A program made the translations under genes and the position numbers. DNA of 25,389 nt. It comes from a virus. The stretch's first letter is position 1; each line of letters starts with the position of its first letter. The notes under the pieces were generated by a model. It was given only the letters and a program-made list of their open reading frames with translations, was not told the DNA's origin and searched no databases. This document shows positions 3,806-22,909 of this stretch, piece after piece. The stretch lies in IMG/VR virus record IMGVR_UViG_3300028844_001300, positions 1 through 25,389 of that record; one strand, written 5' to 3'.

Positions 3806-4821
3806 TGATTATGTGATTTTTCTGCATAACGATTTAATTGATTGAAGTTAGTCAATAACCAACTAGTTAAATTAGGTAATGCTGTGTATAACTTATCTTC
3901 TAAAAACATTTTTTCAAACTTAAACTTTACCAACCTATTGATTGGTGCATTTACTCTGTCTACTATCTTTGTTTTTGTAGAAGCTGAGATATCAACATCA
4001 GATAATTGCATTAATCTGTAGTTTAAATCAATAGTGTCCTTATGTTCTGGTAATTCATTTACAACTTCATCCATCTCTACTATACGATTTTCACTAAGGA
4101 ATGGTAACTTCTTCTGTATTGTTTTTAGTCCAAGACCACGAACACCACTAATATTATCTGATTTATCACCATCCAATACTCTATACCAAATCAGATTGTG
4201 AGATGAAATACCGTACTCTTCTAACACAGTATTCTCATCATACATTTTCTTTTTGGTTGGACTCCAAATCTTTATCCTACCATTAGCTAATTGTAAGAAG
4301 TCTTTATCAGTAGACATGATTGTAATTTGAGATTTAGTAAGAACTTGTCTACAGATATATCCTATGGTATCATCTGCTTCAATGTTATCATAAGACAAAA
4401 CAGTAAGTGGTAAAGCTTCTAAGTACTCAACTACTCTTTGTATCTGCATAATCATATTCATTCTCTCATCATCTTTTGATGCAAAACTATTAGAACGATT
4501 TACACGATACTTTGTTTTTCTGTTTTGTTTATACTGAGGATATATCTTACGACGCCGACTAGAACCCCCCTTGCCATCAAATGCTATGATGACACGGGTA
4601 GGTCTAATCATGTTCACGACATAAGCAATACTTCTTAGAAAACCAACTATTCCACCAATGTGAATACCATCCTCATTAGTAGTTGGTATAACACTAAACA
4701 CTCGGATAAACGTGTTTAGACCATCTATTATTAGTACTTTGTCGTTAGGGTTTCCATCATCTAATGAACCACCCTTTTTCTTTATCTCTTCGAATATGGA
4801 TAAGTATTTTTTATTACTCAC
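3802..4821 (-). CDS. 5'-3' exonuclease / RNase H, T4 Rnh-FEN family
   Basis: Probable flap/RNA-primer exonuclease that trims Okazaki fragments. From the GTG start at 4821 it has 339 residues. Acidic metal-binding motifs of the PIN/FEN fold are visible in order: IIDGLN with Asp33, AFDGKGG with Asp82, IEADD at 147-151, STDKD at 170-174, then the helix-3-turn-helix start DGDKSDNISGVRGLGLKT at about 217-234 with Asp219 and Asp222. A longer reading from TTG at 4836 is possible but has no ribosome binding site. GTG at 4821 has GAGG six bases upstream, so I prefer it; the gene then overlaps the recA stop by eight bases. Length is close to T4 RNase H (305 residues). The C-terminal 100 residues are poorly recognisable. 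It sits between recombinase and methyltransferase in an overlapping operon. Confidence 0.88.
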   Translation of the reverse strand: MSNKKYLSIFEEIKKKGGSLDDGNPNDKVLIIDGLNTFIRVFSVIPTTNEDGIHIGGIVGFLRSIAYVVNMIRPTRVIIAFDGKGGSSRRRKIYPQYKQNRKTKYRVNRSNSFASKDDERMNMIMQIQRVVEYLEALPLTVLSYDNIEADDTIGYICRQVLTKSQITIMSTDKDFLQLANGRIKIWSPTKKKMYDENTVLEEYGISSHNLIWYRVLDGDKSDNISGVRGLGLKTIQKKLPFLSENRIVEMDEVVNELPEHKDTIDLNYRLMQLSDVDISASTKTKIVDRVNAPINRLVKFKFEKMFLEDKLYTALPNLTSWLLTNFNQLNRYAEKSHNQ

Positions 4822-5905
4822 TAACTTCCTCTTCAACTACAACGTCATCAATACCAAAGTTCTTTTCGTATTTAAGAACGACTTTACTACAAATCATCTC
4901 ATAACAATATGATTTAAATTCGTCATCCTCTAGATATTCAGCCCAATCCTTAGATTGAAACTTAATCTCTTTACCATTGTGGTCGTCCATAGTATACCAA
5001 GCACCACCTTGTTTTACAAGTTTGTGTTCTTTCATAACGTGTAACCAACTACCTTCGTTATCAATACCACTCTCAAAGTAAAGTTCAAAGTCAGCATGTC
5101 TCATGGGTGGCCCAAGTCTATTCTTTATGACCTGTGCTCTCATCTTCATACCGATAGTGTTTTTCTTAGTATCTTTTATCTGACCAACATTCTTTAGTCT
5201 GATACGAGTTGAAGCATGGAATGGTAATGCTTTACCGCCACTTGTAGTCCACGGATCTCCAAACATTACACCAAGTTTCTGTCGTAACTGATTTGTGAAT
5301 ACCAAAGCTACTCTCTGTCTACCAATCATCTGAGTAATCTTTCTCATAGCTTTAGAAAGGATAATAGCCTTAGAAGTAGCCCAACCATCTTTGTCGAACT
5401 CTGCTTCTAATTCTACTTTTGTTGTAGCGGCAGCTAATGAATCTACTAAGATAGTTACTAACCTATCTTTGTCTGATTCACGAACCTTAGCGACTATCTC
5501 TTCGATAGCTGAAAATATATCTTCTACTGTTTCTAAGTGTAGATATAACATACTCTCAACATCGACTCCGATAGCCTCAAGGAAATCAGTACTAACTGCA
5601 GTTTCTGTATCTATGTAAACAGCAACACCACCTTTTTTCTGTGTTTCAGCAAGTACGTGAGCTCCAATTAAGGATTTACCACTACTCTCTAAACCATTCA
5701 ATTCTGTTATTCTACCAACAGCAATCCCACCATCAGGTCGGTTTGATATTGCCAAGTCCAACATAGTTGAACCAGTAGAAATAAAGTCTTTGATATCAGT
5801 AGGTGTTGTGTCTGAACCATCAAGGAAATATGCTACTTTCATATCCTTGAATTGTTTGTTAATGGTGTCCGCTAAGACACCAGCTAAGTCATCTCTTGTT
5901 GACAT
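4814..5905 (-). CDS. RecA/UvsX-type recombinase
   Basis: ATP-dependent strand-exchange protein for recombination-dependent replication and repair. It has 363 residues, near the size of bacterial RecA (about 350) and T4 UvsX (391). Visible features are Walker A GLESSGKS at residues 71-78; IDTETA at 98-103, with the catalytic Glu position equivalent to that of RecA; a Walker B-like ILVDSLAAA near 155; and TNQLRQK followed by GVMFGDPWTTSGGKALPF, which reads like loops L1 and L2 of bacterial RecA rather than the more divergent T4 UvsX loops. The tail is acidic (VVVEEEVSE), also as in RecA. ATG at 5905 follows an AGGAG at 5912-5916. The structured intergenic element at 5924-6096 ends eight bases before that site, so its translation may be controlled there. 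Confidence 0.93.
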   Translation of the reverse strand: MSTRDDLAGVLADTINKQFKDMKVAYFLDGSDTTPTDIKDFISTGSTMLDLAISNRPDGGIAVGRITELNGLESSGKSLIGAHVLAETQKKGGVAVYIDTETAVSTDFLEAIGVDVESMLYLHLETVEDIFSAIEEIVAKVRESDKDRLVTILVDSLAAATTKVELEAEFDKDGWATSKAIILSKAMRKITQMIGRQRVALVFTNQLRQKLGVMFGDPWTTSGGKALPFHASTRIRLKNVGQIKDTKKNTIGMKMRAQVIKNRLGPPMRHADFELYFESGIDNEGSWLHVMKEHKLVKQGGAWYTMDDHNGKEIKFQSKDWAEYLEDDEFKSYCYEMICSKVVLKYEKNFGIDDVVVEEEVSE

Positions 5906-5923
5906 ATAGTTCTCCTATATAAA

Positions 5924-6096
5924 AGTGGGTATGTCCGGCTTTTACACACACTCGGTTTTATTAGTGTTGGCTTCAACACCCACTATTGTGTTTTTTATTT
6001 AATTGTTAAATAGGTGGGCAGTTAGTGTCACTGCACTTACATTCATCTCTGTGAACAACTACCCACTATTATGTTTTTATTTAGTTATTAAATAAG
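5924..6096 (-). promoter_or_regulatory. Tandemly duplicated structured element between ssb and recA
   Basis: Two related units, offset by 82 bases, fill the gap. The copies at 5974-6014 and 6056-6096 agree at about 35 of 42 aligned positions; the second includes the last ssb codons (LFNN-stop), and the first still spells LFNN-stop. Each unit can fold on the minus-strand RNA. The ssb-side stem is 6014-6023 with 6057-6066, ten pairs including one G-U. The recA-side stem is 5924-5930 with 5978-5984, seven pairs. A six-pair hairpin with a four-base loop (5964-5979) competes with the latter stem. The last stem ends eight bases before the recA ribosome binding site. A role in mRNA processing or translational control is inference. 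Confidence 0.6.
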
Positions 6097-6836
6097 TCGT
6101 CAAATGCATCTGAAGTTTCTTTAGAACTGTAAGTAGTACTTGGAGCATCTACTTTCTTTTCTTCTTTAGATTCTTCTTCAGTTGTAGAACCACCTTGAAG
6201 GTAGTCGTTCAACGCTTGAGTTAGGTCATCATAAGATTGTTCTTGATATATATCAGTAATATTCTTTTGATTCTCTGTTAACGTCTCAAGTAAAGATGCG
6301 TCTTCTGTGATAGGAGTCTGATTAGGTTTGACTCTGATTGAAGTCGATGGATACTGTGCACCAGTTTCCTCGGCTGTTTTGAACTCTACAGCAACATCAC
6401 GACCGCTTACTGCATCTGTGATATCACCATAATCTGGATCTGCGATTATAGAAAGTAGTTCTTGATAAACTGTTTTTCCAAATCCCCAAAACTTAACACC
6501 TTGTGATTCCTCACCACGTACAATAACAGGAGCATATGTCCTCATCTTCGCTTCAACTTTTCTAGCTAGACGATAATCATCTTTTGAACCTGTTCCCTTT
6601 AATTTCTGAGCGAACTCTTCAAACGGGTCTGGTCTACCAAATGATATAGGTGAAAGATAATTCTTTCCAGCTAAACCGTAATGAAAATACAACTCGATAA
6701 ACGGATTGTCTTTATTGAACTTATAAGGTACAATACGAACAATTTGATTACCAGGTGATGGTTTCCAAAGATTTGATGTTCTATTATTTGTGGTTTGTAA
6801 TTGATTAAGGCGACTTTTGATTGCATTTAAATCCAT
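6081..6836 (-). CDS. gp32-like single-stranded DNA-binding protein
   Basis: Coats single-stranded DNA at forks and during strand exchange, and would work directly with the recombinase, polymerase and helicase encoded beside it. The 251-residue protein begins with a short basic segment (MDLNAIKSRLNQLQ), like the self-association region of gp32. A core follows with LWKPSPGNQIVRIVPYKF at 23-40 and FIELYFHYGL at 46-55, then aromatic and basic residues (VKFWGFGKTVYQEL, 114-127). The C-terminal part is low-complexity and acidic (TTEEESKEEKK) and ends DAFDDLFNN, resembling the acidic interaction tails of SSB proteins. Unlike T4 gp32 there is no cysteine anywhere, so the zinc site is absent. T4 gp32 is 301 residues. 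GGAG precedes the ATG, and a promoter-like pair of boxes lies at 6911-6937. Confidence 0.88.
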   Translation of the reverse strand: MDLNAIKSRLNQLQTTNNRTSNLWKPSPGNQIVRIVPYKFNKDNPFIELYFHYGLAGKNYLSPISFGRPDPFEEFAQKLKGTGSKDDYRLARKVEAKMRTYAPVIVRGEESQGVKFWGFGKTVYQELLSIIADPDYGDITDAVSGRDVAVEFKTAEETGAQYPSTSIRVKPNQTPITEDASLLETLTENQKNITDIYQEQSYDDLTQALNDYLQGGSTTEEESKEEKKVDAPSTTYSSKETSDAFDDLFNN

Positions 6837-6910
6837 TTTATATTCTCCATTGTTTAATTAGTTAGTTGTTATTTGTTAGTTACTTTCGTTGTGTAACCAT
6901 TGTTTATATA

Positions 6911-6937
6911 AGTATAATCAAGTTTTTGAAAATACAA
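6911..6937 (-). promoter_or_regulatory. Candidate sigma70-like promoter upstream of ssb
   Basis: Minus-strand TTGTAT (6932-6937) and TATACT (6911-6916) are separated by 15 bases in the 101-base gap before ssb. The same two boxes with the same 15-base spacing occur upstream of the coiled-coil gene at 23351. The spacing is shorter than the usual 17, so assignment is tentative. Confidence 0.4.
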
Positions 6938-7354
6938 TTATTTTTCGCTGTCTTCCCAAGTATTTACGTTTACTATTGTATAGATTCTAGTAGGTATTTT
7001 ATTCAACCCATCTTCACCTGTTAGTAATAATGAATTTCTATAATTCTTCCAATCTATTGGAAATGTTTTATCTAATTTACCATCATTAAGTTCACGAATT
7101 AAATCGTTAAGTGCGTTGATTGTATATAATGTGTTCGTGTCTTTCTTTCTATGTAATGAGATAGTGTCTGGTATACCTTGTACAAAGTCTTCATCATACT
7201 CTACATTATATGTACATATTAATTGACCATAATCATTTTCATTTTGAAATACATAAATTTTATCAAATACGATATCATTACAAGCTATAATAATACCTAT
7301 GATTTCTTTAAATCTATTTCGTTTTACGAATGTACACAGTAGTTGAGTTCTCAT
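6938..7354 (-). CDS. Conserved-looking phage protein of unknown function, 138 residues
   Basis: I do not recognise this protein. It is 138 residues, soluble, with mixed charge and no signal peptide or membrane segment. The N-terminus (RTQLLCTFVKR, then IIGIIIACNDIVFDKIYVF) suggests beta strands. The middle holds DTISLHRKKDTNTLYTINAL, and the end holds IPTRIYTIVNVNTW. The ATG overlaps the stop of the 663-residue gene (TAATG), so the two are probably co-translated. It lies just upstream of ssb and within the replication block, so a DNA-metabolism or regulatory role is plausible. No catalytic motif is evident. A small accessory factor such as a recombination mediator or transcription factor is possible but not supported by any motif I can see. 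Confidence 0.8.
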   Translation of the reverse strand: MRTQLLCTFVKRNRFKEIIGIIIACNDIVFDKIYVFQNENDYGQLICTYNVEYDEDFVQGIPDTISLHRKKDTNTLYTINALNDLIRELNDGKLDKTFPIDWKNYRNSLLLTGEDGLNKIPTRIYTIVNVNTWEDSEK

Positions 7355-19845: not shown

Positions 19846-20331
19846 TTAGAATTGTAAGATTGCGTAATCGTATTTAAGTGTTAGGGTGATTTCAGCAGGA
19901 TCACTAGAAGCATAATCTAGTTCACCAAAGTTAGCTGTTTGAATATAAGCACCTTTTAGTACCCATTCTTCAACAACATCACCAACTGGACCTAACAAAT
20001 TAAATGTAATATCTTTCTTATAAAAATCTGAGTATCCATCACGACCTGTTACTGATTCATGTGATAAACGAACCCATTCCATAACTGCCTGTGCACCTGA
20101 TGGAACAACTGGATCGTATAAAGTGATATCAATAGGTTGCCAAGCACCTTTACCTTTTATATATCTTTTAACATTGATGTGGTCTAAAACTATTTCTTCA
20201 AACTCTATTTGAGGTCTGTTTGCAGTTTTAATTAAATAAGATGGTATACCTTCTACATACATTATAAACCGATTTTTTGTTTTCGGTTCAAACGGTGTGA
20301 ACATAATTTCTGAAGGATCTAATGTAGCCAT
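19846..20331 (-). CDS. Tail tube protein, gp19-like
   Basis: Structural subunit of the inner tail tube, 161 residues (T4 gp19 is 163). The beta-barrel pattern is visible: KNRFIMYVEGIPSYLIKTAN at about 19-38, RPQIEFEEIVLDHINVKRYI, KGAWQPIDITLYDPVVP near 60-77, VGDVVEEWVLKGAYIQTANF near 115-135 and AEITLTLKYDYAIL at the end. Order and length match the tube proteins of contractile tails, and the gene follows the sheath gene directly as in T4. ATG 20331 has AGGAG (in TTTAGGAG) upstream. A terminator at 20406-20435 separates it from the sheath, so it would need its own start or read-through. Confidence 0.92.
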   Translation of the reverse strand: MATLDPSEIMFTPFEPKTKNRFIMYVEGIPSYLIKTANRPQIEFEEIVLDHINVKRYIKGKGAWQPIDITLYDPVVPSGAQAVMEWVRLSHESVTGRDGYSDFYKKDITFNLLGPVGDVVEEWVLKGAYIQTANFGELDYASSDPAEITLTLKYDYAILQF

Positions 20332-20405
20332 TTCTTTTTTCTCCTAAAAAGTCGTTTATTTCTACTCATAAATAAATATCAATTAAAGAAATTTTTAGTA
20401 AAAAG

Positions 20406-20435
20406 AAAAAACCCCACGATTAAATGGGGTTTTTT
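20406..20435. terminator. Bidirectional intrinsic terminator between sheath and tube
   Basis: Perfect eleven-pair stem (20406-20416 with 20425-20435), A6-CCCCA on one arm and TGGGG-T7 on the other, with an eight-base loop. U-rich tracts follow on both strands. It lies 24 bases after the sheath stop and would end sheath transcripts, leaving the tube gene to a separate promoter or partial read-through. A second seven-pair palindrome lies at 20442-20457 between the stop and the terminator. Confidence 0.9.
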
Positions 20436-20458
20436 TCATGTATTAGTTTTAACTAATT

Positions 20459-22909
20459 TTACTCAGGAAACGTAGCTCCAGTTGGTTGTACTACGAAATC
20501 AAGTACAATGAACTCTGCAGTTCTTGTAGGTTGGATAAATATCTGTCCTACCAATTGATTTCTATCTACAACATCTGGTGTGTTATTAGTGTCATCCATG
20601 ACAACCCTAAAAGCACTTAAACCACTATTAGACTGAACTTGTTCTAGATAAGGATTCACAATGTTTAAGAAACGATTCCTTAGAGCTTGAGTATTCTGTT
20701 CAAATACCAAGTATCTTGAAGCACTTGCAATAAATTTCCTTAATGCAATTAGTAATCTACGAACATTGATTCTATCTAGAGCTGATGGTTTAGATTGTAA
20801 TGTTTTCTGTCCGAAAACGACTACACCTTGACCAGGAAAAGAAGCAATTGGATTAACTCTACCTTCATAAAGGTCATCTCTTTCAGCATGAGTCAATCTT
20901 GTTTTAGCTTCCAATACACTTGTCAATCCACCACGATTCAATCCAGCTGGTGCAAACCATTCGTGAGCTACTTGGTCGTTATATGAAATAACACCAGGTA
21001 AAACAACTGAAGGCGGAACCCATACTGGTATTGAACTGTCTCTATTTGGAATCATTACCCAAGGATAATATGTAGCCACATAGTTAGTATCAAGATTCTT
21101 CACAGTATCTAATACTGTTTCAACAGTATCACCATATGCTGCAGCATCCATAATATAAAGTGCATCTGCTCTAGACTCAACCTTAGATATAGCATGGTTT
21201 GTTACGTTAGAATGTAATCTATGAATAACACCAGGTGTTACTAACAAGTTGATATCAAATTCATCTGGATTACTGATAGCGTTTAGAGCTCTTTTGTAAG
21301 CTAAACTACCACTAGATGTAGAACTTGATAAATCAAACCCTTGTGTATTTCCTGCTGTTATTGCAGTTCCAACATTATAAGCTGTTGCTGGATTTCTACC
21401 ATCAAATCCCCATTGTAGAGGAACAACAAATTTTCTTTGAGCCAATGTTGAATTAGTCAAAGTAATTGTTGTTGAACCATCAGCATATGTTGTCTCACCA
21501 TTTGGATTAGCATCATTATCACCATTCATGTCTTCTAAACTCATGGTTATATTGTTACCTACATTAGCTGGATATGGTATTGGAGCTAAATAATTAGCAT
21601 TATCGTCTTTTATATTAGTAGACAGATAATCAAATCCATAGAATGTATTACCATCGTATGTTCCAATAGCACTTGTTTGATTTGATTTGAATATTACTGC
21701 AGGTATTTCAGTTGTACCCGCTGTAGGATTATATACTGCATCATGGCCCATAGGAACAAGTTCTTTTGGATGTGTTGCAAGGTTATTCTCTCCTGCTGTT
21801 TTAGAAGCATAATCACCTACTCTAATAAATTTACTTAAATTAGGCATTGTACCAAAGAAAGTAAGTTTTCCATTAGAATCAATACTAACGTGTCTATCAC
21901 CAATTCTTTTTGCAAAGTAGTTTGGTGATGTTGAATCAAATGTTAAGTTATCAAACTGTTCTATAATATTATCTTCAGTATTATTAGATCGTACTTGTAT
22001 AGTAAAAGTACCAAAATCCGAACCAGCTATATCTGCAGCTGGTTTAACGTCTCTAATAGCAATCTTTATTTCAGAATTTATATTACTTCCATGTGAACGA
22101 GTATATATTCTAAATAGTTTATATCTTGTAGCATTTACTAATTGAGATTGTATCCACGGTGTTCTTGCAGTTTGATATGCTTTGTTTCCAGTCCAATCTG
22201 TTGATTCATTTCCATCATTGTCTACTGTATTAGTACCATCATAAAAGTTTAATCCATTTGAATCTATATCTAATGATGCAGATGAAAATGAATCATATGT
22301 AGTAGAATTTCCTGTGTGAGTCCATACTTTATAAACATATACAGATGAATTTGAATTTCCACTTCTTGTAGATTGTGGATCTTGACTAAGTACTTTTGTA
22401 ATGTAATTTGCACTACTTGAGTTAAATGATAAAGCATATGACTCTGTTGCAGCTCCAACTGGTACGACATTTAATTCAAATGAATCCCAAGATTGTACAG
22501 ATCCACTTATAGGATTATTTAGTGTTATATTACTACCAGCAAAACTGGTACCACCATTACCTCTTGATGGAGCTAATACTGCTAGTGATTGAGTCACACC
22601 ACCGTCTGCATGTACGTTTAATCTTAAATTATCATGTTTATATCCACCTAGTCCAAGAATCCTAACAACTGTTACGACTCCCGCACTCTTTAAATATTGT
22701 TCTACTGTATTAGGTGTATAAAACCTATCATCCATACCACCAAAAACTTGTTCAAAGTCTTGAAACGAAGTTATCTGTGTTGGTACAAAAGCAGGGCCTT
22801 TTTTTGTAGGCCCTACAATAGCTGCACCGATAGCTCCAATAGCTTGTGGTAAAAACGATAAATCACTCTCGCGAGTAAATACACCAGGCGAAACGATTCT
22901 TTCTGCCAT
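20459..22909 (-). CDS. Tail sheath protein, gp18-like
   Basis: Contractile outer tail sheath subunit, 816 residues (T4 gp18 has 659). The N-terminus (MAERIVSPGVFTRESDLSFL) and IGAIGAAIVGPTKKGPAF near 22-39 carry the family pattern, including SPGVYT-like residues. The last 110 residues hold the conserved C-terminal domain: RLLIALRKFIASASRYLVFE, QALRNRFLNIVNPYLEQV, RVVMDDTNNTPDVVDRNQLV, then PTRTAEFIVLDFVV. The middle is enlarged with Ser-, Asn- and Thr-rich stretches (residues about 130-560), so it would have extra surface domains. ATG 22909 follows AGGAG and a good sigma70-like promoter at 22933-22961. Sheath and tube are the most secure calls of the window. Confidence 0.95.
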   Translation of the reverse strand: MAERIVSPGVFTRESDLSFLPQAIGAIGAAIVGPTKKGPAFVPTQITSFQDFEQVFGGMDDRFYTPNTVEQYLKSAGVVTVVRILGLGGYKHDNLRLNVHADGGVTQSLAVLAPSRGNGGTSFAGSNITLNNPISGSVQSWDSFELNVVPVGAATESYALSFNSSSANYITKVLSQDPQSTRSGNSNSSVYVYKVWTHTGNSTTYDSFSSASLDIDSNGLNFYDGTNTVDNDGNESTDWTGNKAYQTARTPWIQSQLVNATRYKLFRIYTRSHGSNINSEIKIAIRDVKPAADIAGSDFGTFTIQVRSNNTEDNIIEQFDNLTFDSTSPNYFAKRIGDRHVSIDSNGKLTFFGTMPNLSKFIRVGDYASKTAGENNLATHPKELVPMGHDAVYNPTAGTTEIPAVIFKSNQTSAIGTYDGNTFYGFDYLSTNIKDDNANYLAPIPYPANVGNNITMSLEDMNGDNDANPNGETTYADGSTTITLTNSTLAQRKFVVPLQWGFDGRNPATAYNVGTAITAGNTQGFDLSSSTSSGSLAYKRALNAISNPDEFDINLLVTPGVIHRLHSNVTNHAISKVESRADALYIMDAAAYGDTVETVLDTVKNLDTNYVATYYPWVMIPNRDSSIPVWVPPSVVLPGVISYNDQVAHEWFAPAGLNRGGLTSVLEAKTRLTHAERDDLYEGRVNPIASFPGQGVVVFGQKTLQSKPSALDRINVRRLLIALRKFIASASRYLVFEQNTQALRNRFLNIVNPYLEQVQSNSGLSAFRVVMDDTNNTPDVVDRNQLVGQIFIQPTRTAEFIVLDFVVQPTGATFPE

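Follow-up and report, generated by a model that had tools for sequence, protein, structure and literature searches.

Predicted structured RNAs in an apparently exchangeable spacer between ssb and uvsX of a marine phage

The DNA analysed here, called the window, is a whole virus record of 25,389 bases, which by its gene content belongs to a contractile-tailed phage, and the phage is marine. It encodes a tail sheath, a baseplate hub, an exonuclease, a methyltransferase-like protein, a DnaB-like helicase, a gp32-like single-stranded DNA binding protein (ssb) and a UvsX-like recombinase. The spacer that leads from ssb to uvsX on the minus strand is 175 nt long and carries two RNA modules on the coding strand. 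The features of this locus are as follows.

6081 to 6836, minus strand: ssb, gp32-like (PHROG 1192, E 2.3e-16, and PHROG 224, E 2.9e-13, single strand DNA binding protein)
6061 to 6102, minus strand: first repeat copy, consisting of the real ssb 3' end (LFNN-stop) and the start of unit 1 (repeat comparison and sequence)
6014 to 6066, minus strand: unit 1, tentatively assigned as a diverged relative of motif B (model R2 match 6014-6065, alignment A2)
5978 to 6020, minus strand: second repeat copy, consisting of an ssb 3' end and a cassette start, with an untranslated LFNN-stop relic (repeat comparison; TATTTAACAATTAAATAAAAAAC is the real ssb end of locus L028)
5925 to 5983, minus strand: unit 2, assigned as a motif A RNA (model R1 match 5926-5982; covariation in 45 aligned sequences)
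5912 to 5916, minus strand: uvsX Shine-Dalgarno AGGAG, 8 nt 3' of unit 2 (sequence), mostly unpaired in ensemble folds across spacer classes
4814 to 5905, minus strand: uvsX/recA-like gene (PHROG 97 UvsX-like recombinase, E 6.1e-70)

The original prediction placed a tandem folded RNA element on the mRNA strand at this site, together with a duplicated ssb 3' end, and this general picture held. Both units fold on the coding-strand RNA, with a P1 stem of 10 pairs in unit 1 and 8 pairs in unit 2, and the G-U pairs are found on the coding strand as proposed (U6061-G6019 in unit 1, G5977-U5931 in unit 2). The folding z-score of the spacer was -2.79 for the coding strand (3 of 200 shuffles as good) and -1.97 for the other strand (5 of 200). 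No terminator-like site, i.e., a G+C stem with an immediate T run, was present in positions 5850-7000 of the window, and directly after unit 2 there is only TTTTATA. The proposal of a competing hairpin beside the recA ribosome site is inexact in its position. The hairpin in question (GTGTTG-AAGC-CAACAC) sits at 5964-5979, about 50 nt from the Shine-Dalgarno; it is favoured by plain folding, but L015, L046, L176 and other relatives have lost it, so that it is not a conserved alternative.

Unit 2 can be assigned to a structured RNA that we call motif A, since it carries the traits that define membership, namely a P1 closing stem, UGAAG, a P2 stem with a AUAAAACCG loop, and a CCG in this loop that would pair with a downstream CGG. 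In unit 2, P1 pairs 5983-5976 with 5932-5925 and P2 pairs 5967-5963 with 5952-5948, the conserved UGAAGCCA and the loop AAUAAAACCG are present, and a pseudoknot is predicted between C5955-C5954-G5953 and C5937-G5936-G5935. The consensus of the motif A RNA is P1-GU-UGAAGCCA-P2-UAAUAAAACCGA-P2'-GUG-(optional hairpin)-AAAGCCGGAYAC-P1', with P1 and P2 variable, a size of about 55-110 nt, and a shorter form in which P2 adjoins UGAAG. Model R1, which was built from the 45-sequence alignment A1 described below, matched 5926-5982 with 72.8 bits (E 2.9e-16) as the sole match in the window; this match is partly by construction because L001, identical to the window here, is one row of A1, and the structure is supported by the 44 other rows.

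A pattern scan together with the earlier loci yielded at least 122 distinct contexts of motif A, 76 of them with the P1 stem. Five of these (L089, L130, L142, L144 and L188) were removed by eye as coincidences, the remaining 71 contexts were trimmed to 61 distinct sequences, and 45 were aligned as A1, the 16 excluded sequences being mostly near-copies. In A1, where P1 had been selected for pairing, 98.5% of the 600 pair cells were paired, and changes on both sides were found in 128 cells and at nine of the 14 pairs. The covariation score was 0.552, as compared to 0.157 in shuffles and 0.06-0.14 in slid controls. Covariation across related phages had been proposed as a check, and with 128 cells changed on both sides it was strongly positive for unit 2. 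The invariance of GUUGAAG and AUAAAACCG in A1 arises because the search pattern demanded both, and that of CGG because of the filter. P2 was unselected, and here 97.3% of the cells were paired and all four counted pairs showed changes on both sides. The complementarity of the loop suggests the pseudoknot, which is not proven by covariation because its three pairs never vary in A1. On this alignment, motif A is a family of RNAs conserved by covariation and predicted to be pseudoknotted.

The stems of A1 contained 25 G-U as against 3 A-C pairs on the coding strand (21:1 in P1 and 4:2 in P2). The stem filter is not the source of this excess; among the at least 122 contexts, 70 passed it with Watson-Crick pairs only, 76 with G-U and 71 with A-C, and none passed solely by A-C. 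Since G-U outnumbers A-C, the motif A molecule is most likely RNA of the ssb/uvsX coding strand. R1 found exactly one copy in 30 of 32 records and none in two; among 40 other records there was exactly one copy in 16 (one of them, G045, weak at E 4e-4) and none in 24. A DNA-level hairpin or a dispersed repeat was rejected, because G-U outnumbers A-C on the mRNA strand and there is a single copy per record.

Unit 1 appears to be a diverged relative of a second motif, B, and this assignment is less certain than that of unit 2. Motif B is characterized by a P1 stem, CUACAGA, a GGC...GCC inner helix and CUAAC before P1', and model R2 was built from 13 motif-B sequences. In unit 1, P1 pairs 6066-6057 with 6023-6014, CACAGA and CUAAC are conserved, and the inner helix is shortened. 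R2 gave 21.2 bits here (E 2.3e-4, filters off), the best match in the window; it aligns at ACAGA/CUAAC with the shortened inner helix, and P1 contributes part of the score. The alignments of B and of a further motif, E, both contain some changes that preserve the pairing of P1. Away from uvsX, motif B was seen once among the matches listed, at 12820-12880 of L232 (minus strand), between a gene end and a promoter-like TTGACT..TATATT sequence.

The two units are linked by a direct repeat, which had been noticed between ssb and recA and which the comparison confirmed. The segments 5992-6020 and 6074-6102 are 83% identical and 5978-5995 and 6061-6078 are 94% identical, with a spacing of 82-83; in the gapped alignment, 37 of 43 columns were identical (score 58), a score reached by none of 1000 dinucleotide shuffles (best 41). 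Leu-Phe-Asn-Asn-stop is indeed kept in both copies, and ssb truly ends at the first copy only. The duplication of the ssb 3' end is therefore real, but a simple duplication was rejected because the copied flank is closer to the ssb end of L028, an A-type relative, than to the phage's own: the stretch before unit 2, TATTTAACAATTAAATAAAAAAC, is the true ssb end of L028, whereas the window phage's own ssb end is TATTTAATAACTAAATAAAAACA. The duplicated LFNN-stop flank looks like that of a second cassette stacked by recombination, and in the simplest account an L028-like 'ssb end + A' would have been placed behind 'ssb end + B'. This tandem of A plus B is the only one among the at least 154 distinct spacers listed and is held by L001, L200 and L536. 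In three other spacers (L410/L587, L428/L429 and L579), the tip of a G-type stem (UCUGG...UUAACUG) carries a nested E core, and these spacers can be read as one RNA module grafted onto another.

The spacers of relatives were collected in two samples that started from uvsX, the first being an IMG/VR uvsX search with 80 loci kept, 79 of them with an upstream ssb and a readable spacer, and the remaining loci were recruited through RNA patterns. They share one layout, in which the ssb stop is followed by a short A/T-rich stretch, then by an inner core enclosed between the two arms of a closing stem, and lastly by the Shine-Dalgarno and the uvsX ATG. The inner core is wholly different from class to class, and a GUGGG/CCCAC closing stem is often retained while the cores change. 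The at least 299 loci gave at least 154 distinct spacers, which were assigned with regular expressions and by eye to A (54), E (30), B (21), none (19, shorter than 45 nt), other (18, mostly plain hairpins), F (6), C (4) and G (2), classes C, F and G having few sequences each. The first uvsX-first sample contained 54 distinct spacers (A 20, other 15, none 9, B 6, C 4) and the second one 48 (E 25, A 10, F 5, other 3, none 3, G 2). The original prediction had treated a different, unstructured gap in relatives as grounds against it; such gaps do occur in 19 of the 154 distinct gaps listed (below 45 nt, no element), i.e., in a part of the relatives, so the spacer element is dispensable. In the annotated relative Microcystis phage Mel-JY01, the gap between ssb and uvsX is 8 nt.

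Scans for the other motifs gave correctly structured members of E only before uvsX among the matches listed, five stretches for F, and mostly noise for C among the matches listed. Classes F (GAGCUCUCG...GUAAGU) and G (GAGGUCUCUGGA...GACCUC) are candidate structured RNAs with few members (L400, L401, L390, L395, L409, L442, L453 and L640). A TAAATA late-promoter motif before the modules (88 of 135 spacers) was not used because TAAATA is frequent in the window, with 28 and 31 occurrences on the two strands.

The spacer classes do not simply follow the genes around them. On a FastTree phylogeny of 152 UvsX proteins, in which 53 of 149 inner branches are open, the classes required 48 changes, where the minimum possible is 7 and the mean after shuffling 86.4, and the starred branches alone require at least 8 changes for A, 7 for B and 9 for hairpins. 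L233 (class B) and L041 (plain hairpin) are 100% identical over 600 nt of ssb and 99.7% over 600 nt of uvsX, and L239 (B) and L515 (A) are 93.9% identical in the ssb flank and 96.8% in the uvsX flank. By these comparisons the contents of the slot differ between close relatives, whichever the direction of the swap, and turnover at the ssb-uvsX slot appears to be fast.

Motif A is not confined to this junction. Among 642 loci there were at least 124 distinct motif-A contexts, 53 before uvsX and 71 elsewhere; after removal of the coincidences L089, L144, L188 and L208 (the last of which had passed a looser stem filter by chance) and of the ssb-side contig ends L499 and L517, 65 contexts elsewhere remained. 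A loosened form of the consensus for Bacteroidota-type promoters matched within 60 nt before P1 in 21 of the 65 contexts listed, as compared to 66 of 749 windows in the control, which is thus non-zero, and in 0 of 53 uvsX-type contexts. The promoter-like match often ends 4-13 nt before P1 of motif A, so P1 would start near the transcript start. A tRNA-Met lay within 200 nt in 22 of the 65 contexts listed (abutting in 10) as against 107 of 3250 random spots, a tmRNA within 1500 nt in 17 of them, and any tRNA or tmRNA within 1500 nt in 29, with 0 of 53 for the uvsX type. Among the same contexts, 18 copies were followed within 70 nt by a ribosome site and ATG, some copies have no gene just downstream, and in some other contigs motif A lies between two genes, e.g., exonuclease and DnaB-like helicase (L529). 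Just 3' of motif A in L085, L093, L101, L103, L124, L138, L157 and L172 there is a second conserved short motif, ATAGGTGATGAAAGATACTCG or close to it, apparently behind a promoter of its own; these loci are tRNA regions in phages of the Bacteroidota type.

In records that have motif A at another place and also show the junction, ssb and uvsX are separated by only 5-14 nt (L500, L518, L529, L548, L552 and L125/L474), these six records representing at most a few clades and four being shorter than 8 kb. Six records of the class without an element were searched and motif A was absent there too, so motif A is dispensable. R2 matched three of the 40 records mentioned above and none of these also matched R1; A and B never occurred together in those 40.

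Database searches connected neither unit with a known RNA. With Rfam 15 at relaxed thresholds, the window spacer matched only PsrR1, on the opposite strand and at 23.1 bits against a cut-off of 42, and the spacers of 17 further loci gave nothing credible, with no riboswitch, ribozyme, GOLLD or ROOL. Elsewhere in the window, positions 20377-20470, where one gene (19846-20331) is separated from the next (20459-22909), gave sub-threshold matches to BSnc120 (35.6 bits versus 114) and AgrB (29.4 versus 40), which are probably chance, and the gap is possibly structured. Blastn of motif A against INPHARED returned short matches or none and thus no member of the family, and the three places inspected were not motif A. 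A strict pattern scan of GTDB gave 10 stretches, none of which proved to be motif A on reading, and the motif A pattern had no match in 295 genomes of one class; a bacterial or prophage element was rejected on these two scans. R1 had no match in three whole genomes, an empty answer that carries no weight. No description of such an element turned up in the open-access literature, which was searched for structured RNAs of phages, for RNA elements of uvsX or gp32 and for RNAs of tRNA clusters.

In setting, the nearest analogues of motif A appear to be GOLLD and ROOL, structured phage and prophage RNAs near tRNA islands whose function is unsolved according to the accessible text of PMC12286853. 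GOLLD env-38 lies downstream of a Met-tRNA (PMC12286853, accessible text), and motif A is likewise often beside tRNA-Met and tmRNA. GOLLD is giant, many members exceeding 800 nt (PMC12286853, same part), whereas motif A has a different fold and a length of about 55-110 nt. No GOLLD or ROOL match in Rfam came from the window or from the 17 loci. The accessible part of PMC12286853 describes no swapped intercistronic slot for these RNAs, such as is proposed here for ssb-uvsX. T4 rnaC and rnaD are also small stable phage RNAs beside tRNA genes, where some motif A copies lie too, but they measure 139 and 119 nt (NC_000866 annotation), and their identity with motif A was rejected as R1 had no match in T4 69500-73500.

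These comparisons indicate, as far as sequences can, that the RNAs belong to the mRNA strand and that motif A covaries, occurs once per record and recurs outside the operon. We give an even chance to the reading that the spacer between ssb and uvsX serves as an exchangeable slot, filled by small, self-contained structured RNAs which probably act in trans. In the window phage, the slot would hold a diverged motif-B RNA and, behind the ssb end copied by recombination, a motif-A RNA. The RNA would be cotranscribed with ssb and uvsX and fold with P1 closing both ends and the pseudoknot inside; it may persist as a stable small RNA after trimming of the A/U-rich flanks, or as a segment of the mRNA, and would act in trans on a host or phage factor. 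A self-contained trans-acting RNA is favoured because of the promoter and stable-RNA-gene settings, the single copy, the positional freedom and the swapping. A role in phage-host conflict is possible, and the promoter-like, tRNA-Met and tmRNA settings fit a trans role together with the fast turnover of the slot.

Against the trans reading, the modules of marine T4-like phages sit exactly between the stop codon and the Shine-Dalgarno, and this position, together with the 18 'other' spacers among the 154 listed, which are mostly plain hairpins, would suit a cis role. The ribosome site and ATG that follow 18 of the 65 copies listed elsewhere, the dispensability of motif A and the looseness of the promoter pattern also weigh against it. 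The main rival, because plain hairpins occupy the same slot, is an intercistronic element whose closed stem would either shield the 3' end of the ssb mRNA or act on an RNase, by blocking or positioning it, with unequal amounts of the ssb and uvsX products as the result; the cores would be extra stabilisers. This reading agrees with the fixed position of the modules, close behind the ssb stop and a short distance ahead of the uvsX start, and with the GUGGG/CCCAC stem that is often kept as cores change, and in T4 RNase E processes the gene 32 mRNA and has a site near its stop codon (PMC3014915, accessible text). However, a mere barrier needs neither a conserved core nor a pseudoknot, copies of motif A are also found with no ssb near them and next to tRNA genes, 5850-7000 has no terminator-like site, and nothing at all is found in 19 of the 154 distinct gaps listed. 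A cis element is possible on this evidence, though less probable than the trans-acting RNAs.

Riboswitch-like ligand-binding or self-cleaving RNAs controlling uvsX would explain compact conserved cores, a pseudoknot and several unrelated architectures at one site, as in aptamers and small ribozymes. This is unlikely, as Rfam 15 held no credible match to either kind at relaxed thresholds, the Shine-Dalgarno is mostly open in all spacer-bearing classes with no terminator, and some motif A copies lack a gene just downstream.

The original prediction also suggested, with T4 gp32 as the model, that SSB could act on this element. As a translational operator of uvsX, the spacer would let SSB nucleate on the pseudoknot and spread over the uvsX ribosome site, much as gp32 is described to do at its own mRNA leader (PMC535899 and PMC3014915, accessible parts). 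In the T4/RB69 operator, a pseudoknot comes first and then UUAAA/UAAA repeats that overlap the ribosome site of gene 32 (same parts of PMC535899 and PMC3014915), and the operator, of about 28 nt plus repeats, lies before gene 32 (PMC535899, accessible part). Our spacer resembles it in having a pseudoknot (predicted here) in a gp32-related mRNA, a short distance upstream of a ribosome site; it differs in that unit 2 follows the ssb gene, has an outer closing stem and is without the repeats, none of which occur in the ssb-uvsX spacer including the stretch between unit 2 and the Shine-Dalgarno. Judged by the T4 operator, the pseudoknot is likely, and repeats and location do not agree. The mean unpaired probability of the uvsX Shine-Dalgarno was 0.52-0.70 in spacer-bearing classes and 0.43 in gaps without an element, and no occlusion was seen in ensemble folds of the spacer-bearing classes. 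A T4-like layout lies instead upstream of ssb. The leader at 6837-6937 (minus strand) contains a promoter-like TTGTAT..TATACT and a small hairpin, and a stretch rich in UUAA/UAAA precedes its Shine-Dalgarno; the layout of this leader is similar in the 22 related leaders listed, and it is a possible autoregulatory operator of the gp32 type. Because the Shine-Dalgarno is mostly open and this layout lies upstream of ssb, an SSB operator at uvsX is disfavoured, and with motif A in at least 65 contexts off the junction and with unlike folds or empty spacers serving equally before uvsX it is the most improbable of the readings.

For the trans-acting RNAs, a wider and doubtful proposal is that the dedicated slot behind ssb swaps unrelated RNAs (A, B, C, E, F and G) as protein counter-defence genes are swapped elsewhere, each being a decoy or inhibitor acting in trans on a host factor, with motif A widespread and also a free-standing gene beside tRNA-Met and tmRNA. 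By sequence comparison, what is new is a family of small phage RNAs, found in a slot that is occupied by one or another of several unlike structured RNAs, and we know of no precedent for such a slot. Motif A is a family of 55-110-nt RNAs with very strong covariation and more than 100 distinct viral contexts. It has no counterpart in Rfam 15, and in its proximity to tRNA and tmRNA genes it is reminiscent of GOLLD and ROOL, which are themselves unsolved. The ssb-uvsX site is a natural experiment, in which near-identical phages carry different RNAs, a plain hairpin or none, and therefore both the RNA family and the idea of swappable cassettes are directly testable.
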